Shown here piece after piece: positions 808 through 35,951 of a stretch of 35,951 nucleotides of DNA. The stretch is from Mariprofundaceae bacterium. GTDB lineage: Bacteria > Pseudomonadota > Zetaproteobacteria > Mariprofundales > Mariprofundaceae. The stretch covers positions 1 through 35,951 of the forward strand of contig JAUZRG010000039.1 of NCBI GenBank assembly GCA_030950585.1, written 5' to 3'. Every line of letters begins with the position of its first letter. Positions within the stretch are counted from its first letter, which is position 1. The position numbers and the translations under genes were made by a program. The notes under the pieces were generated by a model. That model made no database searches. It saw only the letters and a list, made by a program, of their open reading frames with translations, and was not told where the DNA came from.

Positions 808-1440
808 TTATAACTGCCATAACCGTCCAGCTTGCATCTGCCAATGTTGATCTGCCAATGCATGCACATCCTCAAGATCATGGCTCACCATGATGATCGG
901 AATAGCCCATTCTTGCTGGGACTTTTTAAACCATTGTCGCAAATGTTGACGCATCGCAGGTGCTTGGGCTGAAAAGGGTTCATCCAATAAGACAAGCTTG
1001 GCTTGCCGACATAAAGCACGGGCAATGTTCACCCGTTGCGCTTCACCACTGGAAAGCACTGCTGGGTAACGTGCCAATAAATGACTGATATGCAGAGCTT
1101 CACACAGATTGGAAAAAAACAACGCATCTTGAGAGCGTATGCCTAATTCAATATTTTGCTGCACATTCAACCAAGGCAGCAAAGCAGCGTCACGCCATAC
1201 GCAAGCCACCGAACGTTCATGCACAGGCACACAAAGCGAAGATGCGCTATCCAACTGCACCACGTCATTTAAAACCCATCGTCCTTGAACCTTTTTTTCT
1301 AAGCCTGCCAAACAACGTAAGAAGGTTGTTTTCCCTGAGCCATTTTCGCCAGAAATCATGATAAATTCATGATCGAATGTCTGATTGATATCTAAGGATA
1401 AACAACCCATGTCTAGGCTAAATTCAGCATGGTGTTTCAT
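808..1440 (-). CDS. modC: Molybdate ABC transporter ATP-binding protein ModC, short form
   Basis: This is the ATPase subunit that would drive molybdate import through ModB. At 210 residues it holds only the nucleotide-binding domain. Walker A is GENGSGKT (31-38), the ABC signature is LSSGEAQ (129-135), Walker B is LVLLDEP (149-155) and the H-loop is VSHD (185-188). Two things are odd. The Q-loop glutamine expected in a 'VFQD' context is arginine (VWRDAALLPW, Arg83, codon CGT). The C-terminal Mop/TOBE molybdate-binding domain found in long ModC proteins (about 350 residues) is absent. The start overlaps the modB stop by 4 bases (ATGA), so the two are translationally coupled. Assignment to molybdate rests on modB, modA and moa neighbours. 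Confidence 0.88.
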   Translation of the reverse strand: MKHHAEFSLDMGCLSLDINQTFDHEFIMISGENGSGKTTFLRCLAGLEKKVQGRWVLNDVVQLDSASSLCVPVHERSVACVWRDAALLPWLNVQQNIELGIRSQDALFFSNLCEALHISHLLARYPAVLSSGEAQRVNIARALCRQAKLVLLDEPFSAQAPAMRQHLRQWFKKSQQEWAIPIIMVSHDLEDVHALADQHWQMQAGRLWQL

Positions 1441-2102
1441 TTAAACAAACCCACACGTTGCCGATTCACGCTATAAACCACGGACAACATCACAAAAGAA
1501 ATTGCCAATAAGATCAATGACAGCCACCAAGCTTGCGCACCTTGTTGCATCTCAACCAATTCAAACAAGGCAATACTGGCCACCTTGGTTTCACCTGGAA
1601 TCGATCCCCCAACCATCAACACCACCCCAAACTCACCCATCGTATGGGCAAAAGATAAAGCACCCGCCACCAATACCCCACCCTTGGATGCTGGCAAAAT
1701 CACCAGCCAAAGACGTTGTTTAAAATCCAAACCTTGGGTGTGTGCCATCTCTAACCATGCCTTGGGAATCGCCCGCAAAGCCTGCTGCATCGGTTGCACC
1801 GCAAAGGGCAAACTATAAAGCACCGAAGCCAAGACCATACCCGAAAAAGAAAAGGCCAACGAGGCATCAAAGACATCCTGCCAAGCACGCCCCAACAGCG
1901 TATTGGGTGCAATCATCACCAAGATAAAATAACCCAAAACGGTTGGCGGCAACACCAAAGGCAATGCCACCAAGACCTCTAAAGCGGTGCGACCTTTAAA
2001 CGAACAAAAAGCCAACACATAAGCCAAGGGCAAAGCCACCAGCAACAAAATGAATGTTGTGATCAAAGATAATTTTAAAGAGATTAGGAGAGGATCAAGC
2101 AT
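1437..2102 (-). CDS. modB: Molybdate ABC transporter permease ModB
   Basis: This is the inner-membrane channel subunit for molybdate uptake. The 221-residue protein is close to the usual 225-230 of ModB and has several hydrophobic spans, starting at SLKLSLITTFILLLVALPLA. The cytoplasmic coupling (EAA) loop that contacts ModC is recognisable around EMAHTQGLDFKQRLWLVILP, with the following glycine-rich GGVLVAGALSFAHTMGEFG typical of the CysW/ModB family. It overlaps modC by 4 bases. Its 5' neighbour is the restriction endonuclease gene, ending 12 bases upstream, instead of modA as in most genomes. ModB may therefore depend on readthrough from the restriction-modification genes or on a promoter inside them. 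Confidence 0.92.
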   Translation of the reverse strand: MLDPLLISLKLSLITTFILLLVALPLAYVLAFCSFKGRTALEVLVALPLVLPPTVLGYFILVMIAPNTLLGRAWQDVFDASLAFSFSGMVLASVLYSLPFAVQPMQQALRAIPKAWLEMAHTQGLDFKQRLWLVILPASKGGVLVAGALSFAHTMGEFGVVLMVGGSIPGETKVASIALFELVEMQQGAQAWWLSLILLAISFVMLSVVYSVNRQRVGLFK

Positions 2103-2114
2103 ATAGATCGTGCA

Positions 2115-3124
2115 TCAAGCCAAACGAAGCAGTGTTTCTCGCGTGAGATCTTTCGTACTAAAAACCCTTGGATTATTCTGAAGAAATATATTTACAGCAT
2201 AAATTTCAGGAAACACAAAAATATAACAGCCAAAATCATCACTGGTAATAATCTTGGCTTTAGCCTCATTTAAATCAAGGCCAGAAGTGATATGAATAAA
2301 CACATCCGCTTCAGCACCTTCTATTTTTTTAAATTGTTTATAACGTTCTCGCATCGTTCTTTTCGTAGAAATACCATATGTTTTACCTTTCAAACAAAAG
2401 AAGTGATCGTACTCAAGTTCGTGATAGTGATCATCGATTCTTTTTTCAATATTTTTAATGTTTTCATTCACTAAAACCCGCACAACCAACTCTTCTAAAT
2501 TCGTTCCTGATGATGATTTAATGGACTGACTAATCGACTCTTGAAACATAATCATAAACATCTGATTAGCTTCTAAACCTTGTGCCTTTAAGGCTGCATG
2601 ATAATCAAATAAACGTTGAATAAACACATCATGATAGTCAGCAGTTGGAAAATGTTTTTTTTCTCGTCTCTCCATAAAGCTAAAAAAGACCAAGCTAATC
2701 AATGCACCATTCACTCTAAACGCATAAGGCGTGTTTTTAGTGTGATCATCTCTTTTTAAAGATAACAAGTGATGATCTTCTAGCATGACATCTAATTCAA
2801 TTAATTTAGCATAATGCAAAAGCAACGGTTTAAACGTGAGCATATAAATTGAAAACACAAATACATCATATTTTAAAGCACTATCCATGCTCAATAAAAG
2901 TTCTTTCAACACCATCTTTTTTTGCTCTGAACGTATTTTTGCAATGATTGAGGTTTCAAAATTGATTAAAAAAGCCTGTTGATTGACAGCATCACATAGC
3001 AACTCAAAGGTCTTATTTAACTGAGAGTCACTAAGACCATCAAGACCATTTAACACCTTTAAACATTGGTAAAAATAAAAATTAATTTCAAACTTTTGTT
3101 TTTCAATATGAATATTATTCACAC
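2115..3124 (-). CDS. Probable type II restriction endonuclease (PD-(D/E)XK-like)
   Basis: The gene follows a C5-cytosine methyltransferase and overlaps its 3' end, the usual arrangement of a type II restriction-modification pair. I do not recognise the exact family. The C-terminal third has YGISTKRTMRERYKQF (about 250-265 of the product), resembling the lysine-bearing strand and following Arg-rich helix of EcoRII-like PD-(D/E)XK nucleases. There is no ATG near the start. Two GTG codons lie at 3131 and 3124; the GGAAGG Shine-Dalgarno is spaced correctly only for 3124, giving 336 codons including the stop. The gene is visibly more A+T-rich than modB: 2161-2220 is about 27% G+C against about 47% for 1681-1740. 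This supports acquisition by transfer. Function is inferred mainly from context. Confidence 0.7.
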
Positions 3125-4092
3125 CAATCACCTTCCAAACACTGCAAAATATTGTTTGCTAACTGTTCAATCACGGGTACTGCCACACTATTACCAAACT
3201 GTTTATAAGCTTGAGTATCACTCACAGTCAGCTTAAAATCATCTGGAAATCCTTGTAAACGTGCAGCTTCTCGTGGGCTTAACTTTCTAGGATTTTTACC
3301 TTCTTGGGCAATGAGTATTTCAGAACCATCTTTATAATACCTTGCACTCATGGTGCTTGTGTAATCCGATTCAGCATTGAACATCGAATAACCAAAACCA
3401 TTACCCTTCACTTTATGTTCCGCTTTTCTGCGTTGATGACCTGCCCATAACTTATCTGAAATTGTATATTTTTCATCGACGTTAGAATCTAAAATATGAC
3501 CTAACTTCACGCCTTCACCTTGTTTAATCGGAAATTTAAAATCCACTGAGTGGTCTAAAAAGGCAATGATATAAATACGTTCTCTATTTTGAGGAACACC
3601 AAAATCTTTGGCATTTAAGACTTGAGCATACACTTTGTAACCTAAGTCTGCCAAGGTCTCCTTGACCACTCTAAAGGTATTGCCTTTATCATGGTTTTTA
3701 AAACCCTTCACATTTTCTAAAAATAAAATTTTTGGTTTATGGTATTTTGCAATGCGGACAATTTCAAAAAACAGCGTTCCTCGCGTATCTTCAAAACCTT
3801 TCTTCAAACCCGCAACACTAAAGGCCTGACAAGGAAAACCTGCCAAAATAATATCATGGGCAGGAATATCAGCCGCATGAATCTTTGTAATATCACCATG
3901 AGGTACTTCATCATAATTCGCGGCATACGTTTTTTGAGCATACTTATCGAGTTCTGACGAAAAAACAAACTCGACCTTATCTTGAAATGCTTTTTCAAAA
4001 CCAAGCCGAATGCCGCCAATGCCAGCGAATAAATCAATGACTTTATAGCTTTCATTGAAATTAAAACTACCTTGTTTCAATGCATCTACCAT
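3115..4092 (-). CDS. DNA (cytosine-5-)-methyltransferase of a type II R-M system
   Basis: The enzyme transfers a methyl group from S-adenosylmethionine to C5 of cytosine in its target site, protecting host DNA from the partner nuclease. All main C5-methyltransferase motifs are visible: motif I DLFAGIGGIRLGF (about 20-32), motif IV GFPCQAFS with the catalytic Cys, motif VI ENVKGF, motif VIII QNRERIYIIAF, motif IX RKLSPREAARLQGFP and motif X QFGNSVAVPV. The length of 325 residues matches M.HhaI-sized enzymes. The target-recognition region contains GNGFGYSMF and SARYYKDGSEILI, which recalls Dcm/EcoRII-type enzymes that read CC(N)GG-like sites; that specificity is inference. There is no N-terminal HTH extension. 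A short inverted repeat lies 26 bases before the start. Confidence 0.95.
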   Translation of the reverse strand: MVDALKQGSFNFNESYKVIDLFAGIGGIRLGFEKAFQDKVEFVFSSELDKYAQKTYAANYDEVPHGDITKIHAADIPAHDIILAGFPCQAFSVAGLKKGFEDTRGTLFFEIVRIAKYHKPKILFLENVKGFKNHDKGNTFRVVKETLADLGYKVYAQVLNAKDFGVPQNRERIYIIAFLDHSVDFKFPIKQGEGVKLGHILDSNVDEKYTISDKLWAGHQRRKAEHKVKGNGFGYSMFNAESDYTSTMSARYYKDGSEILIAQEGKNPRKLSPREAARLQGFPDDFKLTVSDTQAYKQFGNSVAVPVIEQLANNILQCLEGDWCE

Positions 4093-4117
4093 GTCGTTTT
4101 TTCCTTATTGCTCATTT

Positions 4118-4134
4118 TTAGCCCGAAACGCTAA
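4118..4134 (-). promoter_or_regulatory. Inverted repeat upstream of the methyltransferase gene
   Basis: TTAGC and GCTAA are separated by 7 bases, centred about 34 bases before the methyltransferase ATG, in the 76-base gap after hepT. An AAGGAA Shine-Dalgarno lies between it and the start codon. It may be an operator for the R-M operon or a weak hairpin. Five-base arms could arise by chance. Confidence 0.25.
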
Positions 4135-4168
4135 TAAACAAGTTTTGTTTTGCGAAGACTACGATGGT

Positions 4169-4501
4169 TTAAAGATCTTGTAACAACGCTTTCATACAAT
4201 CTTCTAATGGCGGCAAATGCTGTTGTATGACTGTTTTAATCGTTAGAGCATCAATATCACCCAGGTAATCATGCACCAAAATATTGCGGAAACCACTAAT
4301 TTCACGCCAAGGAATATGTGGAAAAATAGCTTGCTGCTCAGTGGGTATGGACTCCGTTGCTTCTGATAACGTTTGTAAGTTTCTGATTGCAGCATCGTAG
4401 AGAATATCATCTTCCATAATATCGCCACGCTGTTCGATGCGTTTTATTTTATGGATGGCATCCAAAATATGACGTGCGTAGACCTTCCAATCTTTTTTCA
4501 T
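4169..4501 (-). CDS. hepT: HEPN-domain toxin HepT (DUF86)
   Basis: This 110-residue helical protein carries the HEPN RNase signature R-X4-H-X-Y as RNILVHDY (Arg72, His77, Tyr79). HepT-type proteins are RNases that form toxin-antitoxin systems with a small MNT nucleotidyltransferase encoded next door. In the characterised Shewanella pair, MntA adds AMP residues to a HepT tyrosine and silences it. Here the ATG overlaps the upstream mntA stop by 4 bases, the normal coupling. The pair sits between modA and the R-M genes, within the defence insertion. The intact active-site motif suggests a functional toxin. Confidence 0.92.
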   Translation of the reverse strand: MKKDWKVYARHILDAIHKIKRIEQRGDIMEDDILYDAAIRNLQTLSEATESIPTEQQAIFPHIPWREISGFRNILVHDYLGDIDALTIKTVIQQHLPPLEDCMKALLQDL

Positions 4502-4788
4502 AGCTCCACAGCTTCAGCAAGGATGGATGTGCGAAGGTGTCGATTCAACTCGTGTTCTGGTATCAAATCTACTTTACGGTTAAGCAAGTGTTGCAGCTTT
4601 TCAGTCAGCGGAAGACGCTGCTTAAACAAATCATAACCGCGTGGAAAATCCACGAGTAAATCAATATCGCTATCATCCTTTTCTTCACCACGCGCCACAG
4701 AACCAAACACCCGAATACGCAAAGCACCGTGCCTTTTCGCTAAATCTTCTACAATGCGTTTTTTCTTATGTAATTCATCCATTAACAT
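4498..4788 (-). CDS. mntA: MNT-domain nucleotidyltransferase antitoxin MntA
   Basis: The 96-residue protein is a minimal nucleotidyltransferase. GSVARGEEKDDSDIDLLVDF (29-48) is the GSX10DXD signature with Gly29-Ser30 and metal-binding Asp41 and Asp43. Proteins of this family neutralise the HEPN toxin by adenylylating it. Two ATGs are possible: position 4788 with GGAGG 4 bases upstream, or 4782 with the same GGAGG 10 bases upstream. I kept the longer form. A 62-base gap separates it from modA, enough for its own promoter, so the pair may be transcribed independently of the nap-mod operon. Confidence 0.92.
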   Translation of the reverse strand: MLMDELHKKKRIVEDLAKRHGALRIRVFGSVARGEEKDDSDIDLLVDFPRGYDLFKQRLPLTEKLQHLLNRKVDLIPEHELNRHLRTSILAEAVEL

Positions 4789-4850
4789 CTCGCCTCCAGT
4801 ACCTCAGAAATAAAAGCTTGGCGTGTTTCTGCTATAGTAAACAATATGAT

Positions 4851-5513
4851 TCACCGTCCAACTGTTTCTGAAAGGGAAAAGTGCTGCAACCATTGCCGCG
4901 CGCGCTCATCTTGGCTCAACAACACCCCAATATAAGGAATACGAGCAAGAGATACACTTTCTTGACCTGTGGCCACAAAAGCAGCATCCACCAAACCTTT
5001 GTTGAGCATCATCTGTGCTTGTAAGGCATTTTGAGCATAGACCAGTTTGGGCTTTAAGTCTTTCCATAATCCGTGCTGTTGCAACACGGCTTTAGCCGCT
5101 TGACCAAAGGGTGCGACATCAGGACTAGCAATGGCGATATGCCGAATATTTTTCTGCTTCAGTATCTTTAAATCTTGATGAAACCCGTTTGCGACTTGTA
5201 AAGCCACATAGGCTTGACCCATCACATGTTGAGAGAGGGATCGGCCTTGCTGCATGAGTAAGGCTGGGCGTTGCTTATCCGCCGCGATAAAAACATCAAA
5301 TGGCGCGCCTTGTATGATTTGATTGTACAATCGACCTGTGGAACCTGAGATCAAACGCACCTTGATCGCATATTTTTTTTCAAATGCGAGCACATCAAGC
5401 TGCATCTGTTGATACAAGCTTGATGCCACCGCCACCGTCAGCATTTCTGTAGCAGCGGCATGACTCAAGCATGCAAAAAAACAACCTAGAAAAAGAAGCC
5501 TTTTAACCACCAA
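4851..5513 (-). CDS. modA: Periplasmic molybdate-binding protein ModA
   Basis: ModA captures molybdate in the periplasm and delivers it to ModB. The N-terminus KRLLFLGCFFACLSHAAA is a cleavable Sec signal peptide. The mature part starts LTVAVASSLYQQM, continues with SGSTGRLYNQI and GAPFDVFIAADKQRP, and later has KPKLVYAQNALQAQMMLNKGLVDAAF in overlapping segments, all typical of the ModA fold. At 220 residues it is slightly short (usual about 255). The start is non-ATG: TTG at 5513 or GTG at 5510, both inside the last codons of moaA, so an 8-11 base overlap couples the two genes. The next mod gene, modB, lies 2.7 kb downstream beyond the insertion. Confidence 0.9.
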   Translation of the reverse strand: MVVKRLLFLGCFFACLSHAAATEMLTVAVASSLYQQMQLDVLAFEKKYAIKVRLISGSTGRLYNQIIQGAPFDVFIAADKQRPALLMQQGRSLSQHVMGQAYVALQVANGFHQDLKILKQKNIRHIAIASPDVAPFGQAAKAVLQQHGLWKDLKPKLVYAQNALQAQMMLNKGLVDAAFVATGQESVSLARIPYIGVLLSQDERARQWLQHFSLSETVGR

Positions 5514-20914: not shown

Positions 20915-21761
20915 ATGAATAACACATCACAAAAGCACCATTTTATTCCTATTTTTTATCAGAAAGGGTTTCGCTCTGATCAGGATGAGTTGTTTGCTTA
21001 TAAGAAAGATCGTGGTGGTATCAAGATTCGGTCACCATCTCAAATTATGTATGAGAAAAACTTGCACACTTTTCAGCATAAAGGTGAAGAAAGCATGATT
21101 GAAGATTTTTACTCGAAGTTAGAGGGATGGTTTAGTGAGTATTCAAAAATCATGGAGAATATAGATAATCCCAACCTTATTGGAGAATTAATGAAAGATG
21201 GTAACTTTCAGCGTCTAGCTAAACTCATGGTATCTATACAGTTTTGGAGAACTCCTTGCCGTACACAGCAAGCTATCATTTACGCAGAGAAATTGGTCAA
21301 TCTTTATGATAAAGCTGATGATGAAACAAAGACATTTCTTTACCATAATAGGGATCTTGTTGAATACCACAGTAAAAGGGCTGTTAGATATCATAAGAAA
21401 AGGGCAAAGAAAAACGACTCATTAAAACTCATTCAGTTTTTTCTTTTGCCATTACTCTCATTTGATATTTCATGTAAAGTGAAAAATTTTAAACTTTTTC
21501 AAGCAAATGAACATAAAAAGTTTATAACATCAGATAGACCAGTCATATATTGATAATATTGAAGATTTATTCAGCTTCAAACTTTTTGTTTTTCCATTCT
21601 CAAAAGACCTACTACTTGTAAGTGATGAGCGAGATATCAAGTCACTGAATATTGATAAAATTAATTTATTGATTGCTAATAGAGCAGCAAACATTGTTAT
21701 ATCAGGAGATCAGAAACAGCTTGAGGAGCTAAAAAGTTTATTAAGCGAAACACCTGTGTAA
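20915..21761 (+). pseudogene. DUF4238 family protein, broken by one frameshift
   Basis: The first 212 codons encode a DUF4238 protein: QKHHFIPIFYQKGF at the N-terminus and KKFITSDRPVIY near the stop are the two family hallmarks. The frame ends at TGA 21551-21553. In the next frame, translation from about 21549 gives IDNIEDLFSFKLFVFPFSKD and continues to a TAA at 21759-21761, supplying the missing conserved C-terminal part (about 70 residues). One base has been lost near 21540-21550, by mutation or sequencing error. A GTGAGGG ribosome site precedes the ATG. The function of DUF4238 is unknown; such genes often sit in variable regions, as this one does. Confidence 0.8.
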
Positions 21762-26501: not shown

Positions 26502-26993
26502 TCAATTCGAGTGACTATCACCTTTGTTGGTACGATAAGCCTCGGCTTCTTCACTGCGTTTCGTCCAATAGGCTCTTATTTCTTCGGCACTAAGTATGCT
26601 ATTGTGATCCAAATCCATGCCATCAAATTTAAGCTGCGACCGTTCTAAATATTCTTTGCGCGTGACCACATCATCTTTATTTTTATCATGCTTTTTAAAG
26701 TGATTATTGGTTGGACCTTCCCAAGCATTCACATTGCTGGTTAAATTTTTTCTTTTATTTTTCCAATAATCATAGAGTTCTTGGCGTGCGATTCTGCTAT
26801 CTTTATTGGTATCAAAGCGATTAAAACGAATATTGGCAGGGCGCAAGTATTCTTGCTCACTCACACTCCCATTATGATTTTTATCCATTTGTTCCAAGGC
26901 CTTATGAGCACGCTTAATCGGATCATATACCGCATGTGCCATCATTGGTGCTGCACATAAACAACATACTAAAGGGAAAAACCTTAATTTCAT
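26502..26993 (-). CDS. Secreted EF-hand calcium-binding protein
   Basis: MKLRFFPLVCCLCAAPMMAH is a signal peptide, so the protein is exported. The mature chain has four 12-residue EF-hand loops starting with Asp and ending with Glu: 37-48 (DKNHNGSVSEQE), 61-72 (DTNKDSRIARQE), 103-114 (DKNKDDVVTRKE) and 127-138 (DLDHNSILSAEE). They form two pairs separated by a linker (80-95). The third and fourth loops lack the central Gly at position 6 (Asp and Asn/Ser instead). It probably buffers or senses calcium outside the cytoplasm; a partner is unknown. It is 28 bases downstream of the NfeD gene. Confidence 0.88.
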   Translation of the reverse strand: MKLRFFPLVCCLCAAPMMAHAVYDPIKRAHKALEQMDKNHNGSVSEQEYLRPANIRFNRFDTNKDSRIARQELYDYWKNKRKNLTSNVNAWEGPTNNHFKKHDKNKDDVVTRKEYLERSQLKFDGMDLDHNSILSAEEIRAYWTKRSEEAEAYRTNKGDSHSN

Positions 26994-32356: not shown

Positions 32357-32669
32357 AAAACGATGTGTTATTAGGTGTTAAAGCTCAACTACTAAAGTAA
32401 GACTTTAAGTATTAAGAACACAATATTTAAATGCATTAAAAGTTTTAACACCTTTAATATCAATATCTTATCATGATAAACACAACTTTCAATGCAAGCC
32501 TGAGCGCCACAGTGAAGCTGAAGTGAACAAAGATAACTGAAGCCAAGGCAAGCGTGCGGGACAAGCGAATACTTAAATAAGCCTCACCTTAGTACTGGAC
32601 AGATGTTTCATCATCGGCAAAACTTTTGTCGTTTTTCACTTTTCAGTTTTTTTTGCAAGAGGTTGGCTC
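32357..32669 (+). other. 313-base leader region before the giant lipoprotein gene
   Basis: No coding frame is evident. AGGTGTTAAA (32373-32382) and TTTAACACCT (32444-32453) are exact 10-base inverted repeats 61 bases apart. Near the end CGGCAAAACTTTTGTCG (32615-32631) is nearly self-complementary and is followed by TTTTT (32632-32636), a terminator-like element 34 bases before the start codon. I compared it by eye with c-di-GMP riboswitch consensus and saw no match. Confidence 0.45.
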
Positions 32670-35600
32670 ATGTTGCGTATTCATTATGTCCTTAGTTTAT
32701 TATTTGTTCTTATTCTTTCCGCCTGTGGCAATGGTGATACAGGGAAAGTTGTGGGTAATGTCGCCGTGGTGCAAGGTGGTGGTGCTGTTAATAATGGCCC
32801 CATCTCTAATGCAACCATCACGATCAGTAACTTAACAGGTACAGTGCTCGGAACCGTACAAACAGCCACCTACAATCCGACTATTGATACCACCATGGTC
32901 AATGGCCAACGTCGTCTCAATACAGTGGGTCGATCCGTGGGTCGTTATGTGCTTCAAGCAGCAGACCTCAATAGTGCAGGCTTATTAGCAACTGATTTAC
33001 TCATCATACGTGCATCAGGTGGTATTGATATTGATCCCAATGATGATGGCATCATTGCTCCCACAGGCGAAGGCGCGCAAGGCCCCTTTGTCACAGGCAG
33101 TAACTATGCTTTTATTCAATTCTCTGATTTACAAAACAGCAATACGATCATCAATCAATTCACAACACTGGCTTATGCCGCGATCAACGATCGCTCAGCA
33201 GACCCTGTTGTCATTCGCCAACGTCTGACAAAATTCAGTCAATTTTATTTCAAAGATGTAAATGGTGATGGTAGTCAAGACTACCGTGATATTTACTTCT
33301 TTTCACCTGCACAACATAGCTTTGACATCTATGGTAACTCTAGCCGTAACCATGATCAGTTTTTGAGTTCACCCCATTTTTTACGTGACTTATTAACGGC
33401 CAAAGACCCTTATACCAACCTTACCTACATGGAAGCCTTTCGTGCCAACCCCAATTCCGTGGCTGAAATAACGAAATATACCAATGCTCAATTTGGCGAT
33501 AGCGATGGCGATGGTATTGCCGATGTTTTTGAAGATCCCGTGACCATTGACACCGATGGCGATGGCATCCCCAATGCGACCGATCCCGATGACGACAACG
33601 ATGGCATGACTGATGCGGTAGAACTTGCCAATGGCTTAAATCCTTGGAAAAAAGATGCCAATGACGATCCTGATGGTGATGGCATCACCAATATCAATGA
33701 AGTTGCCGCAGGCACCAATCCTTTTAGTATTCCATTATTGGCTGTGGGTGTTCCCAGTGCCAACACTTCAGAAGCAGCAGGCGGCACAGCCACACTCACC
33801 TTTCAGCTCACATCCCCACCAGCAGCTGGTGTGAATGTTGATATTTACTCATCCAACACCGCAGAAATTAGCCTAAGCCCTGCCACACTTGCCTTTACCG
33901 CTGGTAATTGGTCAATGCCACAAACAATCACCCTCACAGGTGTTGATGATGCCATGATTGATGGCAATCAACTGGTGAACATTGTCGGTTCTGTGCGTGG
34001 TGGCACAGTGGTAGACACGGCTTTTACCACCGTCACCAATATGGATAATGATATTGCTGGTCTAAATATTTCCGCAGCCTCAGGTCCAACCAACGAATCT
34101 GGTGGCAAAGCCACATTCACCGTTGCGCTGCAAGCACAACCCACAGCCAACCTAACGGTCGATTTATCCTCTTCTAATACTGCTGAAATCAGCGTACCTA
34201 CCAGTATTAACTTCACAACAGCCAATTGGAATATTGCACAAACCGTCACCATGACTGGTGTGGATGATACCTATACTGATGGCAATCAAGTCGTCAGCAT
34301 TACTGTTTTAAGTCGTGCGACTGGTGGCTATAATGGACAAGGTGGCCTTGTCACCGTCATCAATAATGATAACGAAAATCCATCGATCATACTTTCCCCC
34401 CCTGTAGGGGCTGCCAGTGAAAGTCAATTTGGCCAAGCAGGCTATACAACAGCCACGTTTGATGTTTTATTGCAAGCGCAACCTTCTGCCAACGTCAACA
34501 TCAGCTTTTCATCTGCCCGACCCACAGAGCTTAATACACCCGCAGCCATCACATTCACACAAAACAACTGGAACATAACGCAACCCATCACCGTGACTGG
34601 TGTAAATGATCCTACCGTTGATGGCAATCAAATGGTGGGTATTTATGCCAATGCCTTGGGTGGTGGTTACAGTGGACAAACGGCCGTTGTCAGCATTAAC
34701 AATGTGGATAACGATGTTTCTGGCTTGGTGGTGAATAGTAGTTTGACGACCGACACCACAGAAACAGGTGGTGCTTCTAACTTCACTGTGTCTTTACTCG
34801 CACGCCCTACCGCCAATGTGACTGTGGATGTTTACAGTACCGACCTTACGGAAATCAAGGTCAATTCAACCACCATGACCTTTACACCAACTAACTGGAA
34901 CGTCAGCCAAAACGCGATAGTTTCGGGTGTAGATGATCCTTATACAGATGGTAATCAACCCGTAAACATTTATGCCCAAGCATCGGCAACTGGCAACTTC
35001 AATGCAGACACCTATAGTTTAACAATCACCAACATTGATAATGAACAAACCGCCATCCTTCTCAGCCCTGTGGCGGGTTTCACCACCGAAGATCCTTATG
35101 GTCAGCCCACCTTCAGAGAAGCCTCCTTTGATTTAAGACTCAGTGCACAGCCCACAGCCAATGTCACGGTGAGCTTTGCATCAGATAAAGTCTTAGAAAT
35201 TGCTGCACCGACGCTTATCACCTTCACAGCAGCAAATTGGGACATCTATCAAAACATTAAACTACGTGGCTTAGATGATACAAAAACAGATGGCGATCAA
35301 ATCGTCACACTCACAGCAACCACGTCATCCACAGGTGGTTATAGTGCCCAAACAGCCACCGCCACCATCACCAACAAAGACAATGAAGTTGCAGGCGTTA
35401 TCGCCACAACGCCTGTAGGTAATAGCGATGAAAACGGTGTAAATGGTGCAAAATCAACCTTTAAAATAAAATTAAGTGCGCAACCAACAGCCGATGTTTA
35501 TGTCACTATTTTATCGCAAAACCCCTATGAAATTGCCGATATTGGCCCTTATGTTTTTACAACAGTCACTTGGTCAACCTATCAACAAGTCGATGTGTAT

Positions 35601-35951
35601 GGTGTCGCCGATCAAAGCTTGGATGGCGATATTCCTGTCGATCTTTATGCCACAGCCACATTGGGTGGTTATGCTGGTAAGTTTGCTGCCGTACAAGTCA
35701 CTAACAACAATACCGACATTGCAGGCATCACTGCCACATTTAGTGGTGGCCCACTATCAGAAAATCGCACGCCAGTAGGCACACTCAGCATCAAATTGAT
35801 TGCCAAGCCCACAGCTAATGTTGTGGTTGATGTCTATTCCACGAACCTTCAAGAAATTATTACTTCTCCTACACAAGCACAGCTAACATTTACTCCCATC
35901 GATTGGGATAAGCCACAAAATGTAGCGATTGCAGGAGTCGATGACCCTTAC
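32670..35951 (+). CDS. Giant Calx-beta repeat surface lipoprotein, 5' part
   Basis: An uninterrupted frame of 1094 codons runs from ATG 32670 (AAGAGG upstream) to the window end without a stop. The N-terminus LSLLFVLILSACG is a lipoprotein signal (Cys19). A region up to about residue 275 has no clear family. Thrombospondin-type-3-like calcium repeats (DSDGDGIADVFED, DTDGDGIPNATD, DDDNDGMTD, DPDGDGITN) cover about 275-355. At least seven tandem Calx-beta-like repeats of about 110 residues follow, with a recurring NW plus SQ/AQ and VDD..DGNQ pattern (for example TLTGVDDAMIDGNQ) and an N.DN(E/D) end. Such proteins are calcium-stiffened adhesins or surface fibres. The C-terminus and export partners lie beyond the window. 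Confidence 0.9.
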   Translation, partial: MLRIHYVLSLLFVLILSACGNGDTGKVVGNVAVVQGGGAVNNGPISNATITISNLTGTVLGTVQTATYNPTIDTTMVNGQRRLNTVGRSVGRYVLQAADLNSAGLLATDLLIIRASGGIDIDPNDDGIIAPTGEGAQGPFVTGSNYAFIQFSDLQNSNTIINQFTTLAYAAINDRSADPVVIRQRLTKFSQFYFKDVNGDGSQDYRDIYFFSPAQHSFDIYGNSSRNHDQFLSSPHFLRDLLTAKDPYTNLTYMEAFRANPNSVAEITKYTNAQFGDSDGDGIADVFEDPVTIDTDGDGIPNATDPDDDNDGMTDAVELANGLNPWKKDANDDPDGDGITNINEVAAGTNPFSIPLLAVGVPSANTSEAAGGTATLTFQLTSPPAAGVNVDIYSSNTAEISLSPATLAFTAGNWSMPQTITLTGVDDAMIDGNQLVNIVGSVRGGTVVDTAFTTVTNMDNDIAGLNISAASGPTNESGGKATFTVALQAQPTANLTVDLSSSNTAEISVPTSINFTTANWNIAQTVTMTGVDDTYTDGNQVVSITVLSRATGGYNGQGGLVTVINNDNENPSIILSPPVGAASESQFGQAGYTTATFDVLLQAQPSANVNISFSSARPTELNTPAAITFTQNNWNITQPITVTGVNDPTVDGNQMVGIYANALGGGYSGQTAVVSINNVDNDVSGLVVNSSLTTDTTETGGASNFTVSLLARPTANVTVDVYSTDLTEIKVNSTTMTFTPTNWNVSQNAIVSGVDDPYTDGNQPVNIYAQASATGNFNADTYSLTITNIDNEQTAILLSPVAGFTTEDPYGQPTFREASFDLRLSAQPTANVTVSFASDKVLEIAAPTLITFTAANWDIYQNIKLRGLDDTKTDGDQIVTLTATTSSTGGYSAQTATATITNKDNEVAGVIATTPVGNSDENGVNGAKSTFKIKLSAQPTADVYVTILSQNPYEIADIGPYVFTTVTWSTYQQVDVYGVADQSLDGDIPVDLYATATLGGYAGKFAAVQVTNNNTDIAGITATFSGGPLSENRTPVGTLSIKLIAKPTANVVVDVYSTNLQEIITSPTQAQLTFTPIDWDKPQNVAIAGVDDPY
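33735..35951 (+). repeat. Tandem Calx-beta-like coding repeats (7, last one partial)
   Basis: Repeat boundaries, set at the N-x-D-N-(D/E) ends, are 33735-34052, 34053-34376, 34377-34715, 34716-35045, 35046-35387, 35388-35717 and 35718 to the edge, about 318-342 bases each. Repeats 2, 4, 6 and 7 open with (I/V)(A/S)G; repeats 3 and 5 open with an (I/L)LSP form and carry a longer loop (ASESQFGQAGY or TTEDPYGQPTF). This suggests a two-repeat duplication unit. Confidence 0.8.

Follow-up and report, generated by a model that had tools for sequence, protein, structure and literature searches.

A gene at the right-hand end of a 35,951-nucleotide stretch of Mariprofundaceae DNA (contig JAUZRG010000039.1 of assembly GCA_030950585.1; the whole stretch is hereafter the window) encodes a giant predicted lipoprotein and continues in a second contig of the same genome. 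We propose, with a probability of about two in three, that this single gene specifies a long-reach lipoprotein tethered to the outer membrane, in which a calcium-stiffened stalk presents a lectin-fold binding head. From N to C terminus, the protein comprises a lipobox, an N-terminal module, TSP3-type motifs, 15 tandem repeats, further TSP3-type motifs and a 404-residue head (Table 1). The initial annotation had described the part within the window as a giant calcium-dependent lipoprotein with alternating Calx-beta repeats. That observation is real, but it took in part of the protein and misread some of it; both the continuation and the head were missed.

One frame across two contigs

The window is the whole of contig C146, one of 212 contigs in a 2.5-Mb genome that is 99.04% complete. 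In the open reading frame (ORF) listing, the frame is open from the ATG at 32670 (+) past the window end, and the window holds 43% of the lipoprotein gene. The last 141 bases of C146 are the first 141 bases of contig C16, 141 being the longest exact overlap, and C16 alone among the matches listed shares the window end. Across this overlap the frame runs without a break to 2569 residues, with its stop at C16:4569. We regard the assembler overlap as strong evidence, but not proof, that the two contigs are continuous. Following the gene rightwards, as the initial annotation had suggested, yields a C-terminal lectin-like head and, beyond the six repeats complete in the window, nine more, one of them R7, which straddles the join.

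Lipobox and N-terminal region

Lipid anchoring, proposed from the window, gains support from the lipobox LSA-C at residues 16-19 (Cys19), which follows a hydrophobic stretch and fits the standard pattern; the +2 residue is Gly, not Asp. The lipobox pattern and the +2 rule are those in general use for bacterial lipoproteins. The initial annotation took the lipobox to speak for such anchoring instead of a type I or type V secretion signal. No type I or two-partner export genes were recognised by eye in the ORFs listed for the window and C16, there is no RTX-type Pfam match in the C16 part, and type I secretion is unlikely.

Parts of the N-terminal module recur at 30-34% identity in lipobox proteins of two genomes of the same family (G011 and G042), and a plasmid search returned no match to it. 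The first TSP3 stretch matches Pfam TSP3_bac at E 1.2e-10 (41.5 bits, cut-off 25), bearing out the TSP3-like repeats reported at the outset. Further DxDxDG motifs are located at residues 2079, 2103 and 2136, and one at 2185 lies inside the head; the second TSP3-type stretch has no Pfam match and is defined by its motifs. The protein as a whole is strongly acidic (268 acidic versus 69 basic residues). NCBIfam gave no match to the head and only below-cut-off matches to the rest.

Fifteen tandem repeats with recent duplication outside the window

The 15 repeats span residues 355-2032 and measure 107-114 residues each (about 112); at the DNA level, a 90-nucleotide core recurs five times in the window at a spacing of 318-342 nucleotides. 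We aligned 14 of the 15, leaving out R7, which is divided between the contigs, and included all 15 in the tree and identity table. The six complete window repeats match the resulting profile at E 3e-36 or better, by construction, as they are members of it. The profile also matched repeats in the related genomes G032, G046, G054 and G065 (E 6e-12 to 1e-17) and one repeat in G047 (E 3e-11), and the likeness among the repeats exceeds what chance would give.

The initial annotation had the repeats alternate between two forms (2/4/6 and 3/5), as if duplicated in pairs. Half of that pattern is present: R3 and R5 cluster with support of 83 (protein) and 89 (DNA) and have a common insert of 5-6 residues, and R2 joins them with support of 70 and 80. 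R2, R4 and R6 form no group in the tree, their identities being 47% (2/4), 36% (2/6) and 32% (4/6), and those of neighbouring repeats 43% (2/3), 37% (3/4), 44% (4/5) and 33% (5/6), within a range of 31-47% among R1-R7. Strict two-form alternation is thus ruled out by the identities and the tree; only the R3/R5 pair stands.

The clear recent duplication lies outside the window, in R8 and R10-R13, whose identity is 74-90% at the protein level and 75-93% at the DNA level; among them, R8, R12 and R13 reach 91-93% mutual DNA identity. A second type, R9, R14 and R15, is 47-65% identical (support 94 protein, 80 DNA). The longest exact repeat within the gene, 138 nucleotides, is just below the 141-base contig overlap, and the assembled copy number could therefore be too low. 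The near-identity of R8, R12 and R13 together with this exact repeat makes size variation through repeat exchange plausible; of the other genomes listed in a search of 80, none belongs to the same genus.

Calx-beta-like repeats and predicted calcium sites

We do not count the repeats as members of the Pfam Calx-beta family: at E<=1, PF03160 matches none of the 14 repeats scanned singly, nor the window protein. We nevertheless retain the description Calx-beta-like, on the basis of the predicted fold and a conserved acidic pattern. An AlphaFold2 model of R2-R3, the only pair modelled, was built on an alignment of five overlapping window-repeat pairs. It has a mean predicted local distance difference test score (pLDDT) of 88.5, strands, and no helix of four residues or more; its predicted template modelling score (pTM) is 0.63, and the angle between the domains is therefore unsure. 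The first VIA-align row for this model is NCX1 CBD12 (3us9; Z 10.0, root-mean-square deviation (rmsd) 9.6, 210 of 221 residues aligned), and further NCX1 and CALX entries follow at Z 9.0-9.8.

Four alignment columns, two glutamates and two aspartates, are invariant in all 15 repeats. Two further columns are acidic in 14 and 15 of the 15, and the last position is among those acidic in every repeat. The calcium-stiffened length that the initial annotation had deduced is thereby backed as far as predicted calcium sites go, by the TSP3 matches and by these acidic residues kept in 15 of 15 repeats. The repeats align co-linearly but weakly (hhalign probability 8.6, E 0.004) with the Calx-beta domain of a protein from the related genome G054 (locus L055), a domain that itself matches PF03160 at E 9e-14. 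Related repeats in other genomes stay below the PF03160 cut-off of 27 bits, those of the G032 protein by less than one bit (26.1) and those of G065 at 19.2.

A head probably related to lectin-fold variable proteins

The head is present in two of the 398 genomes of a phylum sample, the window's genome and G054. Three comparisons suggest that it is related to formylglycine-generating enzyme (FGE)-type C-type-lectin domains. With hhalign, the head matches a profile of FGE domains with a probability of 85.8 (E 5.3e-6), while 30 column shuffles scored at most 3.0 and the reversed profile and the repeats 0.1 each. That profile drew on 30 loci from a longer match list, from which L102 and L119 were dropped (wrong or cut segment) to leave 28; its segments were delimited by motif, not by domain boundary. 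The head also matches phrog_2889, a family whose function is not known, at E 8.9e-7. By BLASTP, it matches the antireceptor of a Pseudoalteromonas phage, proACA1-A, at E 3e-7 over residues 262-400 in a two-sequence comparison, in an alignment that includes D-L-x-G-N-V-x-E-W and the RGGxWD...IGFR end. In the whole phage collection there are three matches, all at E 1 or worse, two to antireceptors and one to a CalU17 biosynthetic pathway protein. None of 18 candidate stretches in viral contigs was confirmed, and plasmids gave matches of E 1 or worse only.

According to an excerpt of PMC6328139, the C-type-lectin fold of TaqVP, TvpA and Mtd is of the FGE subtype, and the variable region sits at the extreme C-terminus. 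The last 33 residues of the head resemble such variable regions, which belong to diversity-generating retroelements (DGRs). From these likenesses we infer a lectin-type fold and ligand binding.

A diversity-generating retroelement is doubtful

The head might be an orphan or remote DGR target, hypermutated at fixed positions once or still, which would make the protein a long-reach hypervariable lipoprotein; we think this unlikely. Its last 33 residues align gap-free with the variable region of the phage, which has a template repeat, Avd and a reverse transcriptase (RT). Relative to the phage template, 0 of 10 residues are identical at AAY codons and 14 of 23 elsewhere (Fisher p 0.0014). At those AAY positions, 8 of 10 codons in the head gene are NNY, which is not clearly above the 13 of 23 at other positions; moreover, asparagine is a peculiarity of templates, and a homologue that had never been diversified would differ there too. 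The head may thus be the same scaffold as the phage variable region, changed at the same places, and a non-diversified homologue would look alike. DGRs do occur in related genomes, one of the same family (G047) and one of the same order (G077), with variable-template differences at adenines in 9 of 9 and 18 of 19 cases (phage, 9 of 11). In Treponema denticola, an excerpt of PMC4891356 reports DGR target genes in strains without the core DGR.

Searches of the window's genome turned up no DGR machinery. The RT search yielded an intact group II intron-type RT, an RT fragment and, within an amidotransferase-like gene, a weak match due to chance (types judged by eye); the genome search for Avd found none. 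Both searches find the DGRs of the related genomes, and the RT search finds the phage RT as well. No template repeat or second copy of the 3' end of the gene is present in the assembly, where the best other match, excluding the gene's own hairpin, scores 35.6 bits; a search of this kind, run on their own loci, gives 162 bits for the phage template and 128 bits for that of G077. G054 was searched for an RT and for a second copy, and neither was found. With no template, DGR RT or Avd found in the window's assembly, the evidence at present does not let us call the gene a DGR target. Binning readily loses mobile elements, and an RT or Avd may have been lost in this way. DGR targeting of the head is possible, and we give a low probability to the fuller version, in which the head is a variable lectin of the retroelement type, carried on a lipid-anchored stalk of 15 domains stiffened by calcium, and is or was diversified by a DGR that acts in trans or has since disappeared.

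The DGR cores of the related genomes (L133 in G047:C55 and L134 in G077:C2) have Avd, RT and template-like repeats; by eye, one stands beside a relaxase-like gene and the other in a prophage-like region. The group II intron-type RT fragment of the window's genome (L024, G000:C81) runs in frame into cytochrome b561-like sequence (by eye), as if from a truncated intron.

A proposed tethered stalk with a distal binding head

In the explanation we favour, the N-terminal cysteine would be lipidated and tether the protein to the outer membrane. Calcium bound at acidic sites near the domain junctions would hold the TSP3 motifs and the 15 sandwiches straight as a stalk, which might reach perhaps 60-70 nm at about 4.5 nm per domain, a general figure for such estimates. 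At its far end, the FGE-type C-type-lectin head would bind a ligand on another cell or matrix. Lipidation, surface exposure, calcium binding and a role in adhesion are all predicted from sequence. The G054 protein counts in favour of this arrangement, as its homologous head shares one chain with a lipobox (by eye) and a Pfam Calx-beta domain.

Several results weigh against it, beyond the failure of the repeats to match PF03160. Ciliary proteins (Z 10.0 and 9.9) are level with NCX1 in VIA-align, PapD-type fimbrial chaperones reach Z 9.8 (rmsd 2.5-3 over ~100 residues for the best of them), and the top Foldseek rows are a ciliary protein and RbmA, with CALX at rank 29; the fold match is therefore not specific. 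Searched against the Protein Data Bank, the repeat and head profiles find nothing significant (best E 2 and 0.13). For the head, the Pfam FGE-sulfatase match is weak and below the cut-off (E 0.096), the hhalign match spans just 40 C-terminal columns, and the antireceptor match falls to E 1 against the whole phage collection. The related head in G054 has no Pfam FGE-sulfatase match and no PHROG match better than E 0.32, and its structure prediction, made from one sequence, had a pLDDT of 34 and was therefore kept out of the fold comparisons.

By eye, the ORF lists show no gene for export to the surface beside the lipoprotein gene, and a lipobox by itself is no proof of surface exposure. Both facts would suit a lipoprotein that faces the periplasm or has a structural role in the matrix, its repeats and head lying within the envelope or a scaffold instead of forming a surface adhesin. 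An extended 15-domain stalk would, however, be longer than the periplasm is wide, the head is of a type seen in binding proteins, and proteins with related repeats in other genomes have C-terminal sorting-like tails (by eye), all of which make this location improbable. Still harder to credit is a head that works as a formylglycine-generating or related enzyme and not as a binding domain. The weak FGE-sulfatase match and the hhalign result point that way, but the latter covers a C-terminal motif common to variable binding proteins, two of the three phage matches are annotated antireceptor, and FGE domains find three further matches in the genome, all strong (E 9.0e-56, 7.6e-49 and 9.2e-49).

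Known systems and significance

Known systems resemble the tethered, head-bearing lipoprotein in parts. Its closest relative here is the G054 protein (JALUXZ010000257.1, same family), which has a lipobox (by eye), a Calx-beta domain and a homologous head of ~400 residues; it is 762 residues long, its head preceded by one Bact_surface_Ig-like domain and a single Calx-beta domain and followed by a putative Ig domain. The phage antireceptor (OR438930.1) exceeds the Pfam FGE-sulfatase cut-off and ends in RGGSWDNGSSAG...IGFR; it is a tail protein whose gene adjoins an Avd gene, a template repeat and an RT, and it lacks a stalk or lipobox. A Legionella DGR (Arambula 2013), going by the title, reportedly involves a surface-displayed, massively variable lipoprotein, whereas no DGR was detected in the window's assembly. 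T. denticola TvpA and related DGR target lipoproteins share predicted lipoprotein signals and an FGE-type C-type-lectin domain with the window protein, as an excerpt of PMC4891356 describes them. TvpA is single-domain in the excerpt of PMC6328139, while the window protein has a stalk with ~1700 residues of repeats and no DGR found in its assembly.

BapP of Pseudoalteromonas tunicata is, in an excerpt of PMC12153261, a large adhesin that depends on calcium and contains tandem beta-sandwich repeats; PF03160 matches seven of these. BapP has a Sec/signal peptidase I (SPI) signal peptide, a beta-propeller and Big_9 repeats (PMC12153261, excerpt); the window protein carries a lipobox and a lectin-like head, and its repeats are not matched by PF03160. 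Proteins of 1090-1189 residues between stops in G065, G046, G054 and G032 (L088, L089, L090 and L091) are reminiscent of BapP. Each has four related Calx-beta-like repeats and, judged by eye, propeller-like repeats and a sorting-like tail at the C-terminus.

The window protein brings known parts together in a new way, joining the designs of adhesins and of variable proteins. TvpA, AvpA and TaqVP, all DGR variable proteins, consist of a single domain each (PMC6328139, excerpt), and the ligand-binding domain of the giant calcium adhesin BapP is described as yet to be determined (PMC12153261, excerpt); this gene unites the two designs. The surprising part is a retroelement-type head on a giant lipid-anchored stalk with no detectable retroelement. 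It offers a testable model in which a variable-protein scaffold is retained and reused where no retroelement is found. Were the head DGR-diversified, it would be a long-reach evolvable receptor in a Zetaproteobacterium. Our literature searches found nothing that pairs Mariprofundaceae with lipoprotein or Calx-beta with formylglycine-generating enzyme, and nothing that combines at least three of Calx-beta, TSP3, surface lipoprotein and repeats. For Zetaproteobacteria with diversity-generating retroelement, they found a single paper, on jumbo phages; for at least three of Mariprofundus, adhesin, biofilm and surface protein, the matches listed leave Mariprofundus unmentioned.

Gene surroundings and other features of the window

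Table 1 Features of the lipoprotein gene. Coordinates are window positions unless prefixed L007 (locus in C16).
Feature	Position	Strand	Basis
Possible sigma-70-type promoter TTAACA-18-TATCAT	32445..32474	+	Consensus scan; weak, not significant
AGAGG ribosome-binding-site-like sequence	32659..32663	+	6 bases upstream of ATG
Lipoprotein signal peptide, residues 1-19	32670..32726	+	Lipobox pattern match
N-terminal module, residues 20-274	32727..33491	+	Homology to proteins of related genomes
TSP3-type DxDxDG calcium motifs	33492..33725	+	Pfam TSP3_bac; motif scan
Calx-beta-like repeat R1	33732..34052	+	Repeat alignment/profile
Calx-beta-like repeat R2	34053..34376	+	Repeat alignment, structure model
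Calx-beta-like repeat R3 (paired with R5)	34377..34715	+	Repeat alignment, tree, structure model
Calx-beta-like repeat R4	34716..35045	+	Repeat alignment
Calx-beta-like repeat R5 (paired with R3)	35046..35387	+	Repeat alignment, tree
Calx-beta-like repeat R6	35388..35717	+	Repeat alignment
R7, first part	35718..35951	+	Continues in C16 across 141-base exact overlap
Gene remainder in C16	L007:142-4569	+	Rest of R7, R8-R15, second TSP3-type stretch, C-terminal head
C-terminal head, residues 2166-2569 (404 residues)	L007:3355-4566	+	ORF, homology

The scan for promoter-like consensus sequences found 2 against 1.0 +/- 1.2 expected. Four bases past the stop lies a terminator-like hairpin of 14 pairs followed by Ts (L007:4574-4605). 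Pfam was run on nine ORFs of the window and C16, and other neighbours were judged by eye. Upstream is an FtsJ-type methyltransferase gene and downstream, on the opposite strand, a PP2C phosphatase gene (Pfam); these neighbours look unrelated, and the lipoprotein gene is therefore probably stand-alone. An Rfam scan of the window gave 0 matches.

Elsewhere in the window, positions 808-5513 (-) encode an ABC ATPase, a permease and a solute-binding protein, ModCBA-like by eye, in a cluster that is split. A C-5 cytosine DNA methyltransferase gene (3115-4092) lies between the permease and binding-protein genes at a dip in guanine-cytosine (GC) content to 0.366; in the same interval, a 338-residue gene product (2115-3131) without a Pfam match at 1e-5 is possibly the methyltransferase's restriction enzyme. 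A small secreted-looking protein with several EF-hand matches is encoded at 26502-26993 (-). At 20915-21553, a DUF4238 gene stands in a stretch of low GC where the GC skew changes sign, and was possibly acquired.

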